From Hydrogenobacter sp. T-8 (GTDB taxonomy: Bacteria; Aquificota; Aquificia; Aquificales; Aquificaceae), in NCBI RefSeq assembly GCF_011006175.1, contig NZ_CP048795.1, positions 868,001-932,000 of the forward strand: a stretch of DNA of 64,000 nucleotides. Reading direction: 5' to 3'. The number at the start of each line of letters is the position of its first letter. Positions within the stretch are counted from its first letter, which is position 1. Under the pieces are notes generated by a model. It did not search any database, was not told the origin of the DNA, and saw only the letters and a list, made by a program, of their open reading frames with translations. Position numbers and translations under genes: made by a program. This document shows positions 29,127 to 58,053 of the stretch, in pieces.

Positions 29127-29357
29127 ATGTACTATGTGGCTGAGGTCATAAACGAAGAGTGCAGTAAGTACAACTGCAAGCAGTGCACCCTCTTTTGTCC
29201 TGAGCCCAACACCCTTATGTATACTGATGAGGAGCATCATGCCTTCGTGGTGCAAGAACGGTGCAAGGGCTGTGCCTTGTGTGTCTATGTCTGCGTAAAT
29301 CTCTTAAAGAGAAACGCCATCCACATGGTCATGCCGGAAGTGCATGCGGAGAAGTAA
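29127..29357 (+). CDS. Ferredoxin-like small subunit of 2-oxoacid:ferredoxin oxidoreductase
   Basis: This 76-residue protein has two cysteine clusters suited to two [4Fe-4S] centres: CSKYNCKQCTLFCPEP and CKGCALCVYVC. It corresponds to the small iron-sulfur (delta/epsilon-type) subunit of the five-subunit Aquificales pyruvate or 2-oxoglutarate oxidoreductases, which pass electrons between TPP-bound intermediate and ferredoxin in the reductive TCA cycle. It opens the operon, and a Uma2 gene follows after 3 bases. Whether it should be named D or E depends on the subunit scheme, so no symbol is given. Confidence 0.82.
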   Translation: MYYVAEVINEECSKYNCKQCTLFCPEPNTLMYTDEEHHAFVVQERCKGCALCVYVCVNLLKRNAIHMVMPEVHAEK

Positions 29358-29360
29358 GGC

Positions 29361-29903
29361 ATGGCAGTAAGGGAAAAGCTCTGGACTTATGAGGATTATT
29401 TCCAGCTTGAGGATGAAAAAAGGTATGAGATAATTGACGGAGAGCTCCTTGAAATGCCAGCACCAAGCCTAAGGCATCAGAAGGTTATTTGGAATCTTGC
29501 CTATGTCTTTAGAAGATATCAAGAGAAAAAAAAACGCGGAGATTTCTATCTTGCTCCAGTGGATGTGGTTCTTTCTCAAGAGCATGTGGTTCAGCCAGAC
29601 CTTGTCTTTGTCTCAAAGGATAGGCTTTCTATAGCAAGGGATAAAGGTATATTTGGTGCTCCAGACCTCGTAGTGGAAGTGGTCTCTCCATCTACCTTTA
29701 AAAGGGATACAGAGGACAAGAGAAGGCTATACGCCAAGCATGGCATAAAGGAGTATTGGCTTGTGTTTCCAGAGGAGAGGGTGGTGGAAGTACTTACCTT
29801 GAAGGGAGATGAGTATGAAGTATTCTCCCACGCCTTTGAAAGCGGAAAGGTTTGTTCAAAACTTCTTGAAGATTTTTGTCTAAATTTAGAAGAAATTTTT
29901 TAA
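29361..29903 (+). CDS. Uma2/DUF820-family nuclease-fold protein (copy 1)
   Basis: This 180-residue protein has the Uma2 family layout: N-terminal WTYEDYFQLEDEKRYEIIDG, then EMPAPSLRHQ, then the PD-(D/E)XK core. The core has D80 (QPD), P101-D102 and E106 (PDLVVEVVSPS), K120 and YAKHGIKEYWLV. Members are abundant in cyanobacteria and Aquificales; their natural target is unknown and the restriction-like fold is the only guide. It lies between two oxidoreductase subunit genes with 3- and 11-base junctions on the same strand, so it must be cotranscribed with them. Confidence 0.88.
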   Translation: MAVREKLWTYEDYFQLEDEKRYEIIDGELLEMPAPSLRHQKVIWNLAYVFRRYQEKKKRGDFYLAPVDVVLSQEHVVQPDLVFVSKDRLSIARDKGIFGAPDLVVEVVSPSTFKRDTEDKRRLYAKHGIKEYWLVFPEERVVEVLTLKGDEYEVFSHAFESGKVCSKLLEDFCLNLEEIF

Positions 29904-29914
29904 GGAGGTAAACT

Positions 29915-30484
29915 ATGGCAATACTTGGACCGTCAGGCTTTTCACCCTATCCTGTGGCTGTTTATGAGGGTATTTTGAATCCTCCACCGGGCAAGGCTCT
30001 AATGTTTAACGAGATCGTAGAAGAAGAGCTTGCTATGAGAGAAGCTGCGAAGGCAATGCTCACAAGACCTAACCCCACCATATTCCCAGGTCCTCAGGTT
30101 CTTTATGCTTGGAACGAGGAGGCAAAGGAAAAGGCAAGGTTAGTAAAGAAGATGGCACAGGTTCTTGGTGCAAAGATTATTCCCATGTATGACTACAGAC
30201 CTAAATATCCCAAAATAAACCCAGCGGTGGAAATAAACCCTAACCATCCAAACCTTACCATATGGCACAACAAGATAAAGGCGTGCATATTCGTAGGCGT
30301 GCATTGCCACTATGCCAATGTAGCTCTCAAGATAATAAGGGCTGAAACGGACTGCTTTACCATAGCCATGTGCGGTATGGCAGGGCATGAAGATGCTATG
30401 ATAACACTCAGAGACCAGCATATAGAAGAGATGGAAAAGTTCATAAATATCGCAGAGGAGGTAAAGAGGGAGCTAGGAAAATGA
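29915..30484 (+). CDS. Oxidoreductase accessory subunit (CO dehydrogenase beta subunit-like family)
   Basis: This 189-residue protein belongs to the family annotated as 'CO dehydrogenase beta subunit-like' that accompanies Aquificales 2-oxoacid oxidoreductases. It starts MAILGPSGFSPYPVAVYEGI and contains VGVHCHYANVALKIIRAETD and IAMCGMAGHEDAMITLRDQH. Its only cysteines are in VHCHYA, DCFTIA, AMCGM and IKACIF, too dispersed for a ferredoxin. Its fixed place in the operon supports a role as a fifth subunit, not catalysis of CO chemistry. A strong AAGGAGG precedes the ATG. It is coupled to the next Uma2 gene by 4 bases. Confidence 0.75.
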   Translation: MAILGPSGFSPYPVAVYEGILNPPPGKALMFNEIVEEELAMREAAKAMLTRPNPTIFPGPQVLYAWNEEAKEKARLVKKMAQVLGAKIIPMYDYRPKYPKINPAVEINPNHPNLTIWHNKIKACIFVGVHCHYANVALKIIRAETDCFTIAMCGMAGHEDAMITLRDQHIEEMEKFINIAEEVKRELGK

Positions 30485-31023
30485 AAACCCGGGAAAGGCT
30501 TTGGACTTATGAGGACTACCTAAGCCTTGAGGAAGAAAAGAGGTATGAGATAATCAATGGAGAGCTTTTTGAAATGCCAGCACCCAGTGTTAGACATCAG
30601 GAAATTCTAAAAAGGCTTGTGAGGCTCTTTCAGATAGTAGAGGATAAAAAGCTGGGGCTTTACTATTTCTCACCAATAGACGTGGTGCTTTCAGAGAAGG
30701 ACGTTCTCCAGCCAGACCTTGTGGTAGTGCTTAAGGAGAATTTGTCCATAGTTCAAGAGAGGGGCATCTTTGGCGTTCCAGACCTTGTGGTGGAAATTGT
30801 CTCTGCCAGCTCCTACAAAAGGGACACAGAGGACAAAAAAAGGCTATATGCAAACTATGGTGTAAAGGAATACTGGCTTGTGCTTCCAGAGCTAAGGCTC
30901 ATTGAAGTGCTTACCCTTCAAGAGGGTGAATACAGAGCTTTTTCCTTTGCCTGTGAAAGGGGCAAGGTGTGTTCAAAGGTGGTTGAGGGTTTGTGTGTGG
31001 AGTTGGAAGGAGTGCTACCATGA
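30481..31023 (+). CDS. Uma2/DUF820-family nuclease-fold protein (copy 2)
   Basis: This 180-residue Uma2 protein has the core motifs D79 (QPD), PDLVVEIVSASS and GVKEYWLV. It starts inside the stop of the preceding subunit gene (ATGA). Residues 66-166 are identical to copy 3, while residues about 41-64 differ strongly. Part of residues 1-40 is also closely similar to copy 3. The gene is intact, which argues against recent decay. Confidence 0.88.
   Translation: MKTRERLWTYEDYLSLEEEKRYEIINGELFEMPAPSVRHQEILKRLVRLFQIVEDKKLGLYYFSPIDVVLSEKDVLQPDLVVVLKENLSIVQERGIFGVPDLVVEIVSASSYKRDTEDKKRLYANYGVKEYWLVLPELRLIEVLTLQEGEYRAFSFACERGKVCSKVVEGLCVELEGVLP
30676..30978 (+). repeat. 303-base direct repeat shared by Uma2 copies 2 and 3 (first copy)
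   Basis: This stretch, codons 66-166 of copy 2, repeats at 31215-31517 in copy 3 at the same codon positions. I count ten base differences, all in silent positions, so the encoded 101 residues are identical. The flanks diverge abruptly on both sides. Such a mosaic is best explained by duplication with later gene conversion or recombination. Confidence 0.9.
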
Positions 31024-31562
31024 TAGCAGAGAAGGTCTGGACTTATGAAGACTATCTAAGCCTTGATGAAGAAAAGAGGTATGAGATAATTGACGGGGAG
31101 CTATTTGAAATGCCAGCACCCAGCGTTAGACATCAAGAGATATCTGGTAGGTTGTATGTGAAACTTTTCAACTACATAGTGGAGAGCTCTCTTGGGATAG
31201 TCCTTTACGCTCCTATAGACGTGGTGCTTTCAGAGAAGGACGTTCTCCAGCCAGACCTTGTGGTGGTGCTTAAGGAGAATTTGTCCATAGTTCAAGAAAG
31301 AGGTATCTTTGGCGTTCCAGACCTTGTGGTGGAAATTGTCTCTGCCAGCTCCTACAAAAGGGACACAGAGGACAAAAAAAGGCTATATGCAAACTATGGT
31401 GTAAAGGAATACTGGCTTGTGCTTCCAGAGCTAAGGCTCATTGAAGTGCTTACCCTTCAAGAGGGTGAATACAGGGCTTTCTCCTTCGCCTGTGAAAGGG
31501 GCAAGGTTTGCTCAAAACTGGCTGATGGTTTGTGCATAGACCTTGAGGAGGTCTTTCGGTGA
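31020..31562 (+). CDS. Uma2/DUF820-family nuclease-fold protein (copy 3)
   Basis: This tandem paralogue of copy 2 is also 180 residues. The ATG at 31020 overlaps the copy 2 stop (ATGA); an earlier in-frame start would only add residues inside copy 2. It shares the WTYEDYLSLDEEKRYEIIDG N-terminus and an identical 101-residue core with copy 2, but has a different segment at about 40-64 (SGRLYVKLFNYIVESS) and a different last 14 residues. It ends 66 bases before porA, whose leader carries AGGAGGTAAGG. Confidence 0.88.
   Translation: MIAEKVWTYEDYLSLDEEKRYEIIDGELFEMPAPSVRHQEISGRLYVKLFNYIVESSLGIVLYAPIDVVLSEKDVLQPDLVVVLKENLSIVQERGIFGVPDLVVEIVSASSYKRDTEDKKRLYANYGVKEYWLVLPELRLIEVLTLQEGEYRAFSFACERGKVCSKLADGLCIDLEEVFR
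31215..31517 (+). repeat. 303-base direct repeat shared by Uma2 copies 2 and 3 (second copy)
   Basis: Partner of the repeat at 30676-30978, offset by exactly 539 bases, which equals the distance between the two start codons. See that entry for the comparison. Confidence 0.9.
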
Positions 31563-31628
31563 TAAAAATCAGCTTGCTTATCGCCACCTTTTATAAATTT
31601 AAAACAAACTTCTATAGGAGGTAAGGTC

Positions 31629-32834
31629 ATGCAGACATCTACCGAGACGGTCATATACAACAGGGCAGGACAGAGGGTGGTTTCACCTGACTACCTTCTT
31701 TTTGAAGCTCCAAGGACGAAGCATTTCATGACAGGCTCAGAGGCAGTAAAGGAGGCGGTAAAGAGGGCTTCAGTAGACGCCTCTGTGTCCTACCCAATAA
31801 CACCCCAGTCTGAGGCGGCGCACCTCATCGGTGAGCTTTGGGTTGAGGGCTATGTGGGTGTATACTTTAGAGGCGAATCTGAGTTTGGCGTTATGTCAGA
31901 AATAGCGGGATGCGCCATGGCGGGTGCAAGGACAATAACCACTACCTCTGGACCTGGAACTCTTAGGGCTTTTGAAAACTTCCCCATGTGGGCGGGGACA
32001 AGAATACCCGTCCAGCTTGTCCTTATGGCAAGAGGTGTAAACTCTCCCCTTTCTATACAACCTGACAACCTTGAGGTGGGTTTCCTGCTTGATACTGGTT
32101 GTATGATATGGTATGCGGAAAACGCACAAGACCTTTTTGATATGATACTGGCAGGCTTTGTGGTAGCAGAACAGCCAGATGTGCATGTCCCAGTTATAAC
32201 TGTGGTGGACGGCTTTTTTGTTTCTCATACACGTGAAGCAGTTATGCTCCCACCAGATGATATAGCCCTTCCACCCTACAATCCTTACAAAGCACCCATG
32301 CCTGTTATAGACGCAGAAGTGCCACCAGGAAGATTTCTCAGAGACCCATTTGTGATGAAGTCCAACTACATCTCCTATGCAACCCATGCCAGCTGGCAGT
32401 GGGAAGTGAGGTCCGCCATTGAAAGGTCAAGACCCTACGCAAAGCACTATCTCAGAGGTCTCGTAGAGGAGTTTGGAGACCCCTCCGCAGAGCTTGTCTT
32501 TGTAGCTTGTGGCACTGCGGCTGCTCAATCAAAGGAGGCGGTCAGACTTCTTGAAGAAGAGGGCATAAAGGCAAGGGTTATCAAGCTAAAAACCATAAGA
32601 CCTTTCCCCATAGAAGAGTTAAGGCAGGCAGTAAAGGGTGCTAAATACATCTTTGTGCCAGAGTTTAACGTGGTAGGATGGCTTGAAAGAGAGGTAAGAA
32701 GATATCTTTACGGACACTCTGACGCAGAGGTTATAGGTGCACCAAGGGTAGCCGGTGGAATGACCATGCCCGCGGAGGTTATAGTCAAAGAAGTTCTTAA
32801 ACTTACAGGAAAGGAGGTAAAACATGTCATATAA
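31629..32834 (+). CDS. porA: 2-oxoacid:ferredoxin oxidoreductase alpha subunit
   Basis: The alpha subunit contributes the TPP-pyrimidine-side domain I and domain II. The 401-residue protein begins its core with HFMTGSEAVKEAVKRASVD, then SYPITPQSEAAHLIGELW and TTSGPGTLRAFENFPMWAG, all typical of pyruvate or 2-oxoglutarate oxidoreductase alpha chains. A C-terminal transketolase-C-like domain is seen around VFVACGTAAAQSKEAVRLLE. Order small FeS - accessory - A - B - G resembles the por operon of Hydrogenobacter (porEDABG) more than for (forDABGE), so pyruvate is the likelier substrate. That assignment is inference. Confidence 0.88.
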   Translation: MQTSTETVIYNRAGQRVVSPDYLLFEAPRTKHFMTGSEAVKEAVKRASVDASVSYPITPQSEAAHLIGELWVEGYVGVYFRGESEFGVMSEIAGCAMAGARTITTTSGPGTLRAFENFPMWAGTRIPVQLVLMARGVNSPLSIQPDNLEVGFLLDTGCMIWYAENAQDLFDMILAGFVVAEQPDVHVPVITVVDGFFVSHTREAVMLPPDDIALPPYNPYKAPMPVIDAEVPPGRFLRDPFVMKSNYISYATHASWQWEVRSAIERSRPYAKHYLRGLVEEFGDPSAELVFVACGTAAAQSKEAVRLLEEEGIKARVIKLKTIRPFPIEELRQAVKGAKYIFVPEFNVVGWLEREVRRYLYGHSDAEVIGAPRVAGGMTMPAEVIVKEVLKLTGKEVKHVI

Positions 32835-33684
32835 GATTTACGAAATAAACGAAGAGTTTTTGGATGTTATGCCTCAGGAAATAAAAGACCTTCAGTTTAA
32901 GGCTACCTGGGGCAACCCCAAGAGGGGTGTTATGGACCTTCCTTATTCAAAGGAGTTAATAGAGGAGCATTCTCTGTGTGCGGGATGCCCTGAGTCCATG
33001 GCTCTCAGGTATATCCTCGCCTCTTTGCCAAACCCCGAGGACACCATAATAGTCAACTCTACAGGATGCACCTCTTTGGTCTTCCCCCACATAGCCCTTC
33101 ATACGGTCCACTCCCTCTTTGGAAACCAGAATGCGGTAGCCTCTGGCATAAAGAGAGTGCTTGAGTGGAGGTTTCCCGACAAGGTCAAGGATGTGGTAGT
33201 GCTTGCTGGAGATGGTGCCACAGTGGACATAGGTCTTGACTGCACCCTTCAGTCCTTCTTTAGGCAAGAGAAGATAACCACCATATGCTTTGACAACGAG
33301 GTCTATGCCAACACAGGCGGTCAAGAGAGCGGTTTGACGGTAAAAGGTCATGTCTTTAAGATGGCACCAAAGGGCAAGCAGTGGGACAAAGTCCCCATGT
33401 GGCAACTTGCCATAGACTCAGGATGCCACTATGTGGCAAGGCTTACCGTGTCCTCTCCCAAAAGGGTAGAAACGGTCATAAAGAAAGCCATATACGTGGC
33501 AAGAGAAGTAGGACCCACATATGTGCATCTTTATACTCCTTGTATTCTTGAAATAGGTCTCAACTCTGATGACGGTCTTGATGAGATGAGGCAAAGGGAC
33601 AAGGAAAGGTTTGCCTTCTTTGAGTATGTTTCTGAACCTGCAAAAGAGGTCATTGAACGCAAGAAAGAGGAGGGCTTGCTATGA
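32824..33684 (+). CDS. porB: 2-oxoacid:ferredoxin oxidoreductase beta subunit
   Basis: The beta subunit binds TPP pyrophosphate and the proximal iron-sulfur cluster. The 286-residue protein has CAGCPESMALRY, a cluster motif, NSTGCTS, and the TPP/Mg motif GDGATVDIGLD. FDNEVYANTGGQESGLT follows, with a later cysteine in YTPCILEIG. Together these give the cysteines expected of a [4Fe-4S] beta subunit. It overlaps porA by 11 bases and porG by 4. Confidence 0.92.
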   Translation: MSYKIYEINEEFLDVMPQEIKDLQFKATWGNPKRGVMDLPYSKELIEEHSLCAGCPESMALRYILASLPNPEDTIIVNSTGCTSLVFPHIALHTVHSLFGNQNAVASGIKRVLEWRFPDKVKDVVVLAGDGATVDIGLDCTLQSFFRQEKITTICFDNEVYANTGGQESGLTVKGHVFKMAPKGKQWDKVPMWQLAIDSGCHYVARLTVSSPKRVETVIKKAIYVAREVGPTYVHLYTPCILEIGLNSDDGLDEMRQRDKERFAFFEYVSEPAKEVIERKKEEGLL

Positions 33685-34394
33685 TGAGGAGAAGGGTAAA
33701 CATTCGTATGCCAGCCCTTGGAGGTCAAGGTGCAGTTACCGCTGCACACATAATAGCCACAGCGGCGGACTACGAGGGCTACTATGCGGTTTCTAACCCC
33801 TTCTTTGGTGCGGAAAAGAGGATGGCACCAGCGGAGAGCTATGCACGCATAGGAATGGAGCCCATCTACGACAGAGGCGAAGTGGTCTATCCGGATGTTA
33901 TCATGGTCTTTCACCCTCAAGTCATCACCATGGGTAAATCCTACACCATGCCCTTCTACTCTGGCATAAAGAGAAAAGGTCTTATCATCATAAACACAGA
34001 GGAAGACCTACTTACCGACGAGGACAAAGAAAGACTTGAAGAGCTTGAGGTAAAAGTATTTAACTTCCCAGCTACCAAGTTTGCTATAGACATAGCAGGC
34101 ACAGAGCTTTCCACCAATATGGCTATGATAGGTGCCCTCTTTGGTGCTATAGGCGCGGTTGGCGTTGAGGCTATAGAAGAGGGTATAAAGTCAAGGTTTC
34201 TCAAGAAATTTGTAGCCTCTGGTGGAACTGCTTCTTTGGACTCTGCTCTTGAGAGGAAGTTCAAGAAAAAGCTAGAGCTAATAGAGAAAAACCTCAACAC
34301 CGCAAAGGCTGCATATGAGCTTGCTCAAAGGTGGGCACAAGAGCAGGGGCTTGAGCCTTTCCTTCCTCCCCCACCCAAAAAGGTAGCAGTGTAA
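33681..34394 (+). CDS. porG: 2-oxoacid:ferredoxin oxidoreductase gamma subunit
   Basis: The gamma subunit (237 residues) completes the ABG catalytic core. It begins NIRMPALGGQGAVTAAHIIA, the standard gamma-chain Rossmann-like start. It continues FFGAEKRMAPAESYARIG, which contacts CoA/TPP, and then STNMAMIGALFGAIG. The C-terminus is a helical extension ending in PPPPKK. It is the last gene of the operon and is followed 6 bases later by a GC hairpin. Confidence 0.92.
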   Translation: MMRRRVNIRMPALGGQGAVTAAHIIATAADYEGYYAVSNPFFGAEKRMAPAESYARIGMEPIYDRGEVVYPDVIMVFHPQVITMGKSYTMPFYSGIKRKGLIIINTEEDLLTDEDKERLEELEVKVFNFPATKFAIDIAGTELSTNMAMIGALFGAIGAVGVEAIEEGIKSRFLKKFVASGGTASLDSALERKFKKKLELIEKNLNTAKAAYELAQRWAQEQGLEPFLPPPPKKVAV

Positions 34395-56551: not shown

Positions 56552-57535
56552 ATGGAGTTTCCAAAGCTAAGACCAAGAAGACTAAGAAGGAACGAAAATA
56601 TACGCAGGCTTGTGAGAGAGACCAAGCTAACCCTTGACGACCTTATATACCCCATCTTTGTGCGATATGGTCAAGGCATTGTGGAAGAAGTCCCAAGCAT
56701 GCCCGGGGTTTATCGCTACAGCCTTGACAAGGTAGTGGATGCAGTAAAAGAGGTAAGAGACCTTGGTATACCTGCCATAATACTCTTTGGCATACCAGAG
56801 CACAAGGATGAAGTAGGCTCAGACACTTGGAGTGATGAGGGCATTATACAAAGGGCTCTAAGGCTCATAAAGAAGGAAGTGCCAGATATGTATCTTATAA
56901 CGGATGTATGCTTTTGTGAGTATACAACGCACGGGCACTGTGGGGTGCTGTGTGATGGAGATGTTCACAACGACCTGACCCTTGAAAACCTCAAAAAGCA
57001 GGCTATATCGCATGCCAAAAATGGTGCGGACATGCTTGCACCCTCTGGCATGATGGATGGGATGGTAAAGGCTATAAGGGAGGCTTTAGACTCTTCTGGC
57101 TTTGAAAACATTCCCATAATGGCATATTCTGCTAAGTATGCCTCTGCCTTTTATGGACCCTTTAGAGAAATAGCTGAATCCGCACCAGCCTTTGGCGACA
57201 GAAGAAGCTACCAGATGGACCCAGCAAACTCAAGAGAAGCTATTAAAGAGATACTCTTGGATGTGCAAGAGGGTGCGGACATTGTGATGGTAAAACCTGC
57301 ACTTGCATACCTTGACATAATATCAAAGGTAAAAGAGCTTACACTTTTGCCCGTGTGTGCTTACAACGTGAGCGGTGAATATGCCATGATAAAGGCAGGT
57401 GGTAGGCTTGGCTGGATAGATGAAAAGAGGGTGATGATAGAAACCTTGCTTTCCATAAAGCGTGCGGGTGCGGACATGATAATCACCTACTTTGCCAGGG
57501 ATGTGGCAAGGCTCATAAACAGTGGAGAAGTTTGA
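56552..57535 (+). CDS. hemB: Porphobilinogen synthase
   Basis: HemB condenses two 5-aminolevulinate molecules to porphobilinogen. The 327-residue protein has the metal-binding [20 protein letters not shown] (a CxC...C site typical of the zinc-type). The Schiff-base lysines are in [15 protein letters not shown] and [13 protein letters not shown], and the magnesium-associated region is near RSYQMDPAN. The first codons start [19 protein letters not shown]. The Uma2 gene at 57535 starts inside its stop codon. Confidence 0.96.
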
Positions 57536-58053
57536 TGGGCTTGGTTGAAAGGTATCCAGTAAGATACACAGTGGAGGACTGGAAACATTGGCAGGGAGAC
57601 TGGGAGCTGGTGGAAGGAGTTCCCTACGCCATGGCCTCGCCAAGACCCATAAACCAAAGGCTTTTAATCTTAGTGGCCTTGCTTTTAGAGGGAATACTCA
57701 GAGATAGATGTCCAGATTGTATGGTTTGCGCAGAGCTTGATTGGTATATTTCTTATGACACAGTTATAAGACCAGACCTTATGGTGCTTTGTGGAGAAAT
57801 TCCAGAAAGGGTAGAAAGCCCACCGCAGATGGTTGTAGAAATAGTTTCGCCTTACAGCAGGCAGATGGATGAGGGGCTAAAGTTTGAGCTGTGTGAAAGA
57901 GAAGGTGTGAAATACTTTGTGCTTGTGTATCCAGAAGAGAAAAGAGTGAAGGTCTTTGAGCTCGCTAAAGGTAAATACAGGGAGAAAAGGGACAGAGGCT
58001 TCAGCTTTGGAGAATGTAAGGTAGAAATAAAGCTTGAGGAGGCTTTGATATGA
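57535..58053 (+). CDS. Uma2/DUF820-family nuclease-fold protein (copy 4)
   Basis: This 172-residue Uma2 protein is more distant from copies 1-3. It has YTVEDWKHWQGDWELVEGVP, AMASPRPINQR, the core aspartate in VIRPDLMVL, and PQMVVEIVSPYSRQMDEGLK with VKYFVLVYPEEKRVKV. Its ATG overlaps the hemB stop, and the 109-residue hypothetical overlaps its end by 4 bases. A haem gene fronting a Uma2 gene repeats the pattern of Uma2 in a metabolic operon. Confidence 0.85.
   Translation: MGLVERYPVRYTVEDWKHWQGDWELVEGVPYAMASPRPINQRLLILVALLLEGILRDRCPDCMVCAELDWYISYDTVIRPDLMVLCGEIPERVESPPQMVVEIVSPYSRQMDEGLKFELCEREGVKYFVLVYPEEKRVKVFELAKGKYREKRDRGFSFGECKVEIKLEEALI

Follow-up and report, generated by a model that had tools for sequence, protein, structure and literature searches.

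Uma2-family nuclease-like genes with an apparently block-swapped helix α1 at recurrent operon junctions of Hydrogenobacter sp. T-8 and related Aquificaceae

The window analysed here, a 64,000-nt stretch of the genome of the hot-spring bacterium Hydrogenobacter sp. T-8 (contig NZ_CP048795.1, positions 868,001 to 932,000), contains an operon for a five-subunit pyruvate:ferredoxin oxidoreductase (POR), an enzyme central to carbon fixation, in which three genes of the Uma2 family (DUF820, COG4636, PF05685) lie between the subunit genes. The arrangement is real: open reading frames (ORFs) and profile searches give the gene order D-Uma2-E-Uma2-Uma2-A-B-G, all on the + strand, and a preliminary description of the stretch had this order and the coordinates of the genes right. 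It was also right that the three Uma2 genes are intact; each encodes 180 aa and matches PF05685 (E-values of 3.2e-36, 2.3e-34 and 1e-33; 117–125 bits against a cut-off of 27). The arrangement is not a product of chance, because it recurs in related genomes and because Uma2 genes are enriched for close co-directional neighbours on both sides, which were found for 81/115 Uma2 genes versus 134/328 other genes (Fisher p = 4e-8, with the other genes of the same loci as background and naive ORF calling). Two aspects are new here, the exchange of a single helix, α1, which appears to have been swapped as a block between otherwise near-identical tandem copies, and a recurrent set of operon junctions occupied by mostly site-specific Uma2 clades.

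The variable segment of the Uma2 proteins is sharply delimited. Across 48 tandem pairs, identity was 0.31–0.35 at residues 43–60 and about 0.6–0.9 elsewhere. The corresponding cassette is ~60 nt long and often unrelated between tandem copies; the clearest pair has few differing codons outside one block of about 24. Synonymous (pS) and non-synonymous (pN) divergence between tandem copies were 0.72 and 0.46 inside α1, compared with 0.50 and 0.12 outside it, and pS in α1 exceeded that of the flanks in 20 of the 26 arrays, each represented by one pair (Wilcoxon p = 1e-4). For the Nuo1 copies of genome G013, the flanks had a pS of 0.10 and α1 a pS of 0.78. Within the window, the repeat finder aligned Uma2-2 (30481..31023, + strand) and Uma2-3 (31020..31562, +), the two copies at the E-A junction, at 96% identity over 300 nt downstream of α1 and 87% over 113 nt upstream, and left α1 itself unmatched. 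The cassette of Uma2-2 (30606..30665, +) is unlike that of Uma2-3 (31142..31204, +) in pair comparison too; comparison of alleles showed a near-identical counterpart of the latter in the relatives G003 and G013. Uma2-1, the copy at the D-E junction (29361..29903, +), carries its cassette at 29486..29548 (+), as a gap between the two conserved repeat blocks D2 and D1.

Pairs with similar flanks have helices that are mostly either near-identical or largely different, and similar α1 alleles turn up across loci and across species. Copies with similar flanks shared a helix in 2/34 pairs within a genome versus 24/71 between genomes (p = 0.0015), a comparison in which orthology inflates the between-genome count and the pairs are not independent. 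Relaxed constraint was rejected as the sole cause of the variability, because it would not raise synonymous divergence and synonymous sites inside α1 also exceed the flanks. Point hypermutation was rejected as well, the helices of several orthologous copies being identical or nearly so between species. On a cyanobacterial plasmid with 19 Uma2 genes, the effect at α1 was weaker (mean identity 0.52 versus 0.81), and a second dip in identity lay near residues 87–98.

In the predicted AlphaFold model of Uma2-1 (predicted local distance difference test score 93.5), residues 37–57 form one helix that matches the variable segment. In all clades compared, positions 46 and 50 of this helix carry hydrophobic residues without exception. 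The residues at 44, 47, 48, 51 and 54 change a great deal and are frequently hydrophobic or aromatic, a pattern more suggestive of contact with protein than with DNA. The helix probably has an exposed, partly hydrophobic face, to judge from these residues. The nuclease core is kept: D80, P101, E106 and K120 show no variation among 91 aligned Uma2 copies, preserving the PD-EXX-K active site with a migrated lysine (D80/E106/K120) that has been described for the family (PMC551604). Structure comparison recovered the Uma2 fold (6okh, Z 28.5; 9y1l, 21.7; 1wdj, 20.6; 3ot2, 20.0), and type IIG nuclease domains are among the structural relatives, as is NucC, though weakly. Outside α1, the genes are under purifying selection, with pN well below pS, and at the POR, Nuo, Psr and inositol monophosphatase (IMPase) sites their synonymous divergence is similar to that of the flanking genes.

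The POR loci of related Aquificaceae genomes were compared for Uma2 genes at the D-E and E-A junctions. Each junction contains 0, 1 or 2 copies; D-E is occupied only in the window genome's own genus, and E-A is occupied in both main Aquificaceae branches. Many Aquificaceae POR operons have no Uma2 gene at all, which is not the conservation expected of a POR subunit. At least eight changes of occupancy at E-A are needed on the tree of the POR subunits. The tree of the E-A Uma2 genes, with α1 masked, has the same two main branches as the hosts and several of the same terminal groups, locus L074 being the clear exception. The E-A Uma2 is probably old, judging from this likeness to the host phylogeny, and repeated losses of it are likely. 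The D-E copies fall among the E-A copies within one POR clade and, because of this grouping, are most simply explained as having been copied locally from one side of the E gene to the other, a duplication that would have taken place inside one genus. Two POR operons carried unexpected labels: that of L060, on a contig labelled Sulfurihydrogenibium yellowstonense, groups inside Hydrogenobacter, pointing to transfer or contamination, and L050, a metagenome-assembled genome labelled Acidobacteria J001, has an Aquificaceae POR operon and is probably mislabelled.

The preliminary description had proposed recent, precise insertion of the Uma2 genes and had suggested comparing the operon across Aquificaceae. 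Occupancy does vary among relatives, but the comparison mostly does not support recent insertion: the E-A copy tracks the host tree and Uma2 synonymous divergence is mostly that of the flanking genes. What is supported is that the E-A insert is essentially the ORF alone and that close relatives differ in copy number (0, 1 or 2) at the same junction. In the empty E-A allele of a Hydrogenobacter locus, TAAAAATCATGC comes after the TGA stop codon of E. The occupied allele has ATGA-[Uma2 genes]-TGA and continues with TAAAAATCAGC, so that the two differ essentially by the ORFs. The 66-nt porA leader of the window (31563..31628, +) starts with TAAAAATCA, which matches the spacer found in relatives with an empty site right after the E stop codon (junction L018 versus L021 and L086). 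Insertion-sequence borders were absent: at the E-A junctions and in a repeat search of the window, no inverted repeats bracketed the Uma2 genes and there was no duplication beyond the stop codon itself; a shared target motif was not seen by eye at unlinked Uma2 junctions. The ATGA overlaps cited in favour of insertion are present at E/Uma2-2 and Uma2-2/Uma2-3, but D/Uma2-1, Uma2-1/E and Uma2-3/A are separated by spacers, the distances along the operon from D to G being 3, 11, -4, -4, 66, -11 and -4 nt. Candidate relics of lost Uma2 genes in the 75–87-nt D-E gaps (G005, G009; loci L049, L055) and in the E-A gap of G004 were no better than shuffled sequence, and the sole significant match in this test was the start of a second copy after the IMPase-site Uma2 of G010.

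The POR operon is one of many such sites, in agreement with the earlier view of a family scattered over operons at stop-start junctions; 17 Uma2 genes were counted in the genome. One Complex I operon has Uma2 between NuoCD and NuoH and again between NuoH and the gene behind it (to judge from its position NuoI, without a Pfam match at the threshold used), and a second has it between NuoCD and NuoH. Three tandem copies separate the A and B subunit genes of a dimethyl sulphoxide reductase-type molybdoenzyme, and further sites lie after SerA, before ArgG, between PurH and a MoaD/ThiS-like gene, between IMPase and a universal stress protein, and after HemB. The last of these is a fourth Uma2 gene of the window (57535..58053, +), missing from the preliminary description; it joins HemB (ending at 57535) and a 109-aa gene (starting at 58050) through TGATG and ATGA overlaps, and the same site is occupied in G010 and G012. 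Related genomes use these junctions again, with 0–5 copies at each. The Uma2 clades largely follow junction site, and two of them span several unlinked sites (SerA/Tpx and ArgG/IMPase/HemB). In the published analysis of the family, Uma2 genes had no recurrent neighbours and their insertion was virtually random (PMC551604), a picture that differs from the recurrent junctions across a family of bacteria, and the hypervariable α1 cassette, described here. By eye, two small HEPN/MNT-like genes lie near a Uma2 array behind the thiol peroxidase gene (L168, 7390–8092; L180, 1734–2424). On a plasmid of Pseudanabaena PCC 7367 (L222, 13702–17876), a run of Uma2 genes lies inside a phycobilisome gene cluster, one of them split by an IS630 element.

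Comparison with known systems places the genes firmly in the Uma2 family, with which they share the fold, the PD-EXX-K site, the occurrence in tandem copies and the proliferation within genomes. The preliminary description held that the operon orders reported for Hydrogenobacter have no such inserts; the Hydrogenobacter loci examined are indeed empty, but a case in Aquifex had been overlooked. The operon is similar to the pyruvate:ferredoxin oxidoreductase (PFOR) cluster of Aquifex aeolicus, which holds a single Uma2 gene, aq_1194, numbered between the δ gene aq_1192 (E here) and the A gene aq_1195 (PMC10052474), compared with three genes at two junctions in the window. The aq_1194 protein was not found by mass spectrometry in the A. 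aeolicus PFOR activity band, which contradicts a role for Uma2 as part of the oxidoreductase (PMC10052474). In Synechocystis, the DUF820 gene sll1222 likewise lies between subunit genes of a redox enzyme, in the hox operon, and is reported to belong to one octacistronic transcript (PMC3933540); that case differs in being cyanobacterial, single-copy and in another enzyme (PMC4963859, PMC3933540). The Rpn (YhgA-like) proteins, the closest analogy in function, are PD-(D/E)XK nucleases with a hypervariable dimerization helix, of which at least one acts against phage (PMC10327210). Rpn and Uma2 are alike in nuclease type and in having a hypervariable helix, but the families differ, only PF05685 having been matched in Pfam at an E-value of 1e-3, and Rpn varies the number of a four-residue repeat in its C-terminal domain, whereas Uma2 replaces a whole helix near the N-terminus. 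The closest label in a database is the PADLOC single-gene defence candidate PDC-S03, which all three Uma2 proteins match (best model 3e-42 to 1e-46, including a match at 2.4e-43). An earlier study described Uma2 as a probable solo toxin that occurs in paralogue cassettes (PMC2701414); at the POR operon, the neighbours of the Uma2 genes are subunit genes or other Uma2 genes, and there is no adjacent antitoxin gene of the kind found in type II toxin-antitoxin systems.

Our data are best accommodated, at somewhat less than an even chance, by a model in which the Uma2 proteins are weakly expressed, standing nucleases of intracellular conflict, each with a private partner specificity set by α1. One Uma2 gene was probably already present at the E-A junction in an Aquificaceae ancestor; in the genus of the window, it would have been copied to D-E and duplicated in tandem, and it would have been lost in other lineages. 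The proteins are probably produced constantly and in small amounts, because the ribosome sites of the three genes are weaker than those of the POR subunits (Shine–Dalgarno (SD) energies of -6.6 to -8.9 versus -10.2 to -13.3 kcal/mol, Uma2-1 having the weak value of -6.6) and because of the ATGA overlaps. Weak initiation is not universal in the family, since second and later tandem copies have stronger median SD energies than first copies (-9.6 versus -6.9 kcal/mol). Recombination would homogenize the ends of tandem copies while leaving or exchanging the ~60-nt α1 cassette, a mechanism that we infer from the mosaic. By analogy with Rpn, and because the face that the cassette alters is partly hydrophobic and probably exposed, α1 most likely sets the protein partner of each nuclease, probably itself, giving private homodimers or private partners. 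The most likely arena would be conflict with foreign DNA rather than pyruvate metabolism. Several points weigh against this model. The nuclease, defence and dimerization activities of the Uma2 members here are predicted, PDC-S03 is a predicted candidate rather than a proven system, and the genes lie in metabolic operons and not in a defence island. The exposed face of α1 was read from hydrophobic patterns, not coordinates; two tandem pairs in G003 have identical helices; and the Uma2 genes at the ArgG site diverge more than some of their flanks, and the copy at the PurH site more than PurH. A broader formulation, in which the arrays are diversity-generating nucleases that swap α1 between copies by recombination, keep the core and so build a repertoire of partner or target specificities, protected from loss by residence in essential operons, is on the unlikely side.

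The alternative that we rank second, and consider rather unlikely, is a selfish, homing-like nuclease that would cut empty operon junctions, or the conserved genes beside them, enter by copying as the cut is repaired and in this way spread to stop-start junctions in well-conserved operons. Feder and Bujnicki proposed homing, together with proliferation of the family within genomes, in 2005 (PMC551604), and the presence or absence expected at a cognate site is seen in the 0, 1 or 2 copies at both POR junctions, in the variation between close relatives, in inserts that consist of the ORF alone and in the single clades at unlinked sites (SerA/Tpx; ArgG/IMPase/HemB). Transmission decoupled from the host, the other hallmark of homing endonucleases, was not found at the POR junctions, where the E-A tree is host-like save L074 and Uma2 pS is close to that of the flanks; homing also leaves unexplained why α1 in particular differs between neighbours, and the unlinked junctions share no visible motif. 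A housekeeping role, ranked third and improbable in our estimation, would have Uma2 adjust the balance of the subunits through the polycistronic mRNA or the locus DNA, or sense the metabolic state. The family-wide use of the same subunit junctions, the purifying selection outside α1 and the precedent of hox cotranscription (PMC3933540) speak for such a role, but many relatives have no Uma2 at POR, the sites include the unrelated SerA, PurH, HemB and Tpx, and the protein is absent from the A. aeolicus PFOR activity band (PMC10052474). A further proposal differs from the favoured model only in what α1 contacts: as a DNA-recognition helix, it would make tandem copies a repertoire of nuclease specificities, similar to exchangeable target-recognition domains. 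The mosaic helix on a conserved catalytic core and the kinship with restriction nuclease domains fit this proposal, but the residues that vary are in many cases hydrophobic instead of basic, and we give it as little weight as the housekeeping role.

The subunit genes themselves are readily assigned, all on the + strand. D (29127..29357) encodes the small iron-sulphur subunit of 76 aa (ε/ferredoxin in Aquifex), with matches to Pfam Fer4_10/Fer4_21 and a weak one to NCBIfam PorD_KorD, and its ortholog sits upstream of E in the POR loci of relatives. E (29915..30484) encodes the 189-aa accessory subunit (PF02552, CO_dh/ACDS-epsilon-like, 4.3e-58); the E-type CO-dehydrogenase-like protein is POR-δ in A. 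aeolicus (PMC10052474). The α, β and γ subunits are encoded by A (31629..32834; PF01855, 5.5e-65), B (32824..33684; PF02775 and PorB models) and G (33681..34394; PF01558, 6e-41). The operon has 11 promoter-like sites, only somewhat more than the shuffled mean of 6.1 (sd 2.8), three of them at the same spot within the three Uma2 genes, and a terminator scan of the operon found no excess. A 36-nt AT-rich stretch ending in AGGAGGTAA is common, at 78% similarity, to the end of Uma2-1 (29876–29911) and the porA leader (31589–31624), and may be coincidental or a footprint of recombination.

The Uma2 family is very large and has solved structures but no known function, and its placement was formerly described as random. 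The apparently swapped α1 helix is a strong clue to what that function may be, and together with the recurrent set of operon junctions it provides two concrete handles: the choice of partner by each helix allele, and the effect of removing an array. If α1 determines specificity, Uma2 would be a second PD-(D/E)XK family, after Rpn, to diversify a single interface around a constant nuclease core, and the retention of tandem Uma2 copies would be explained.

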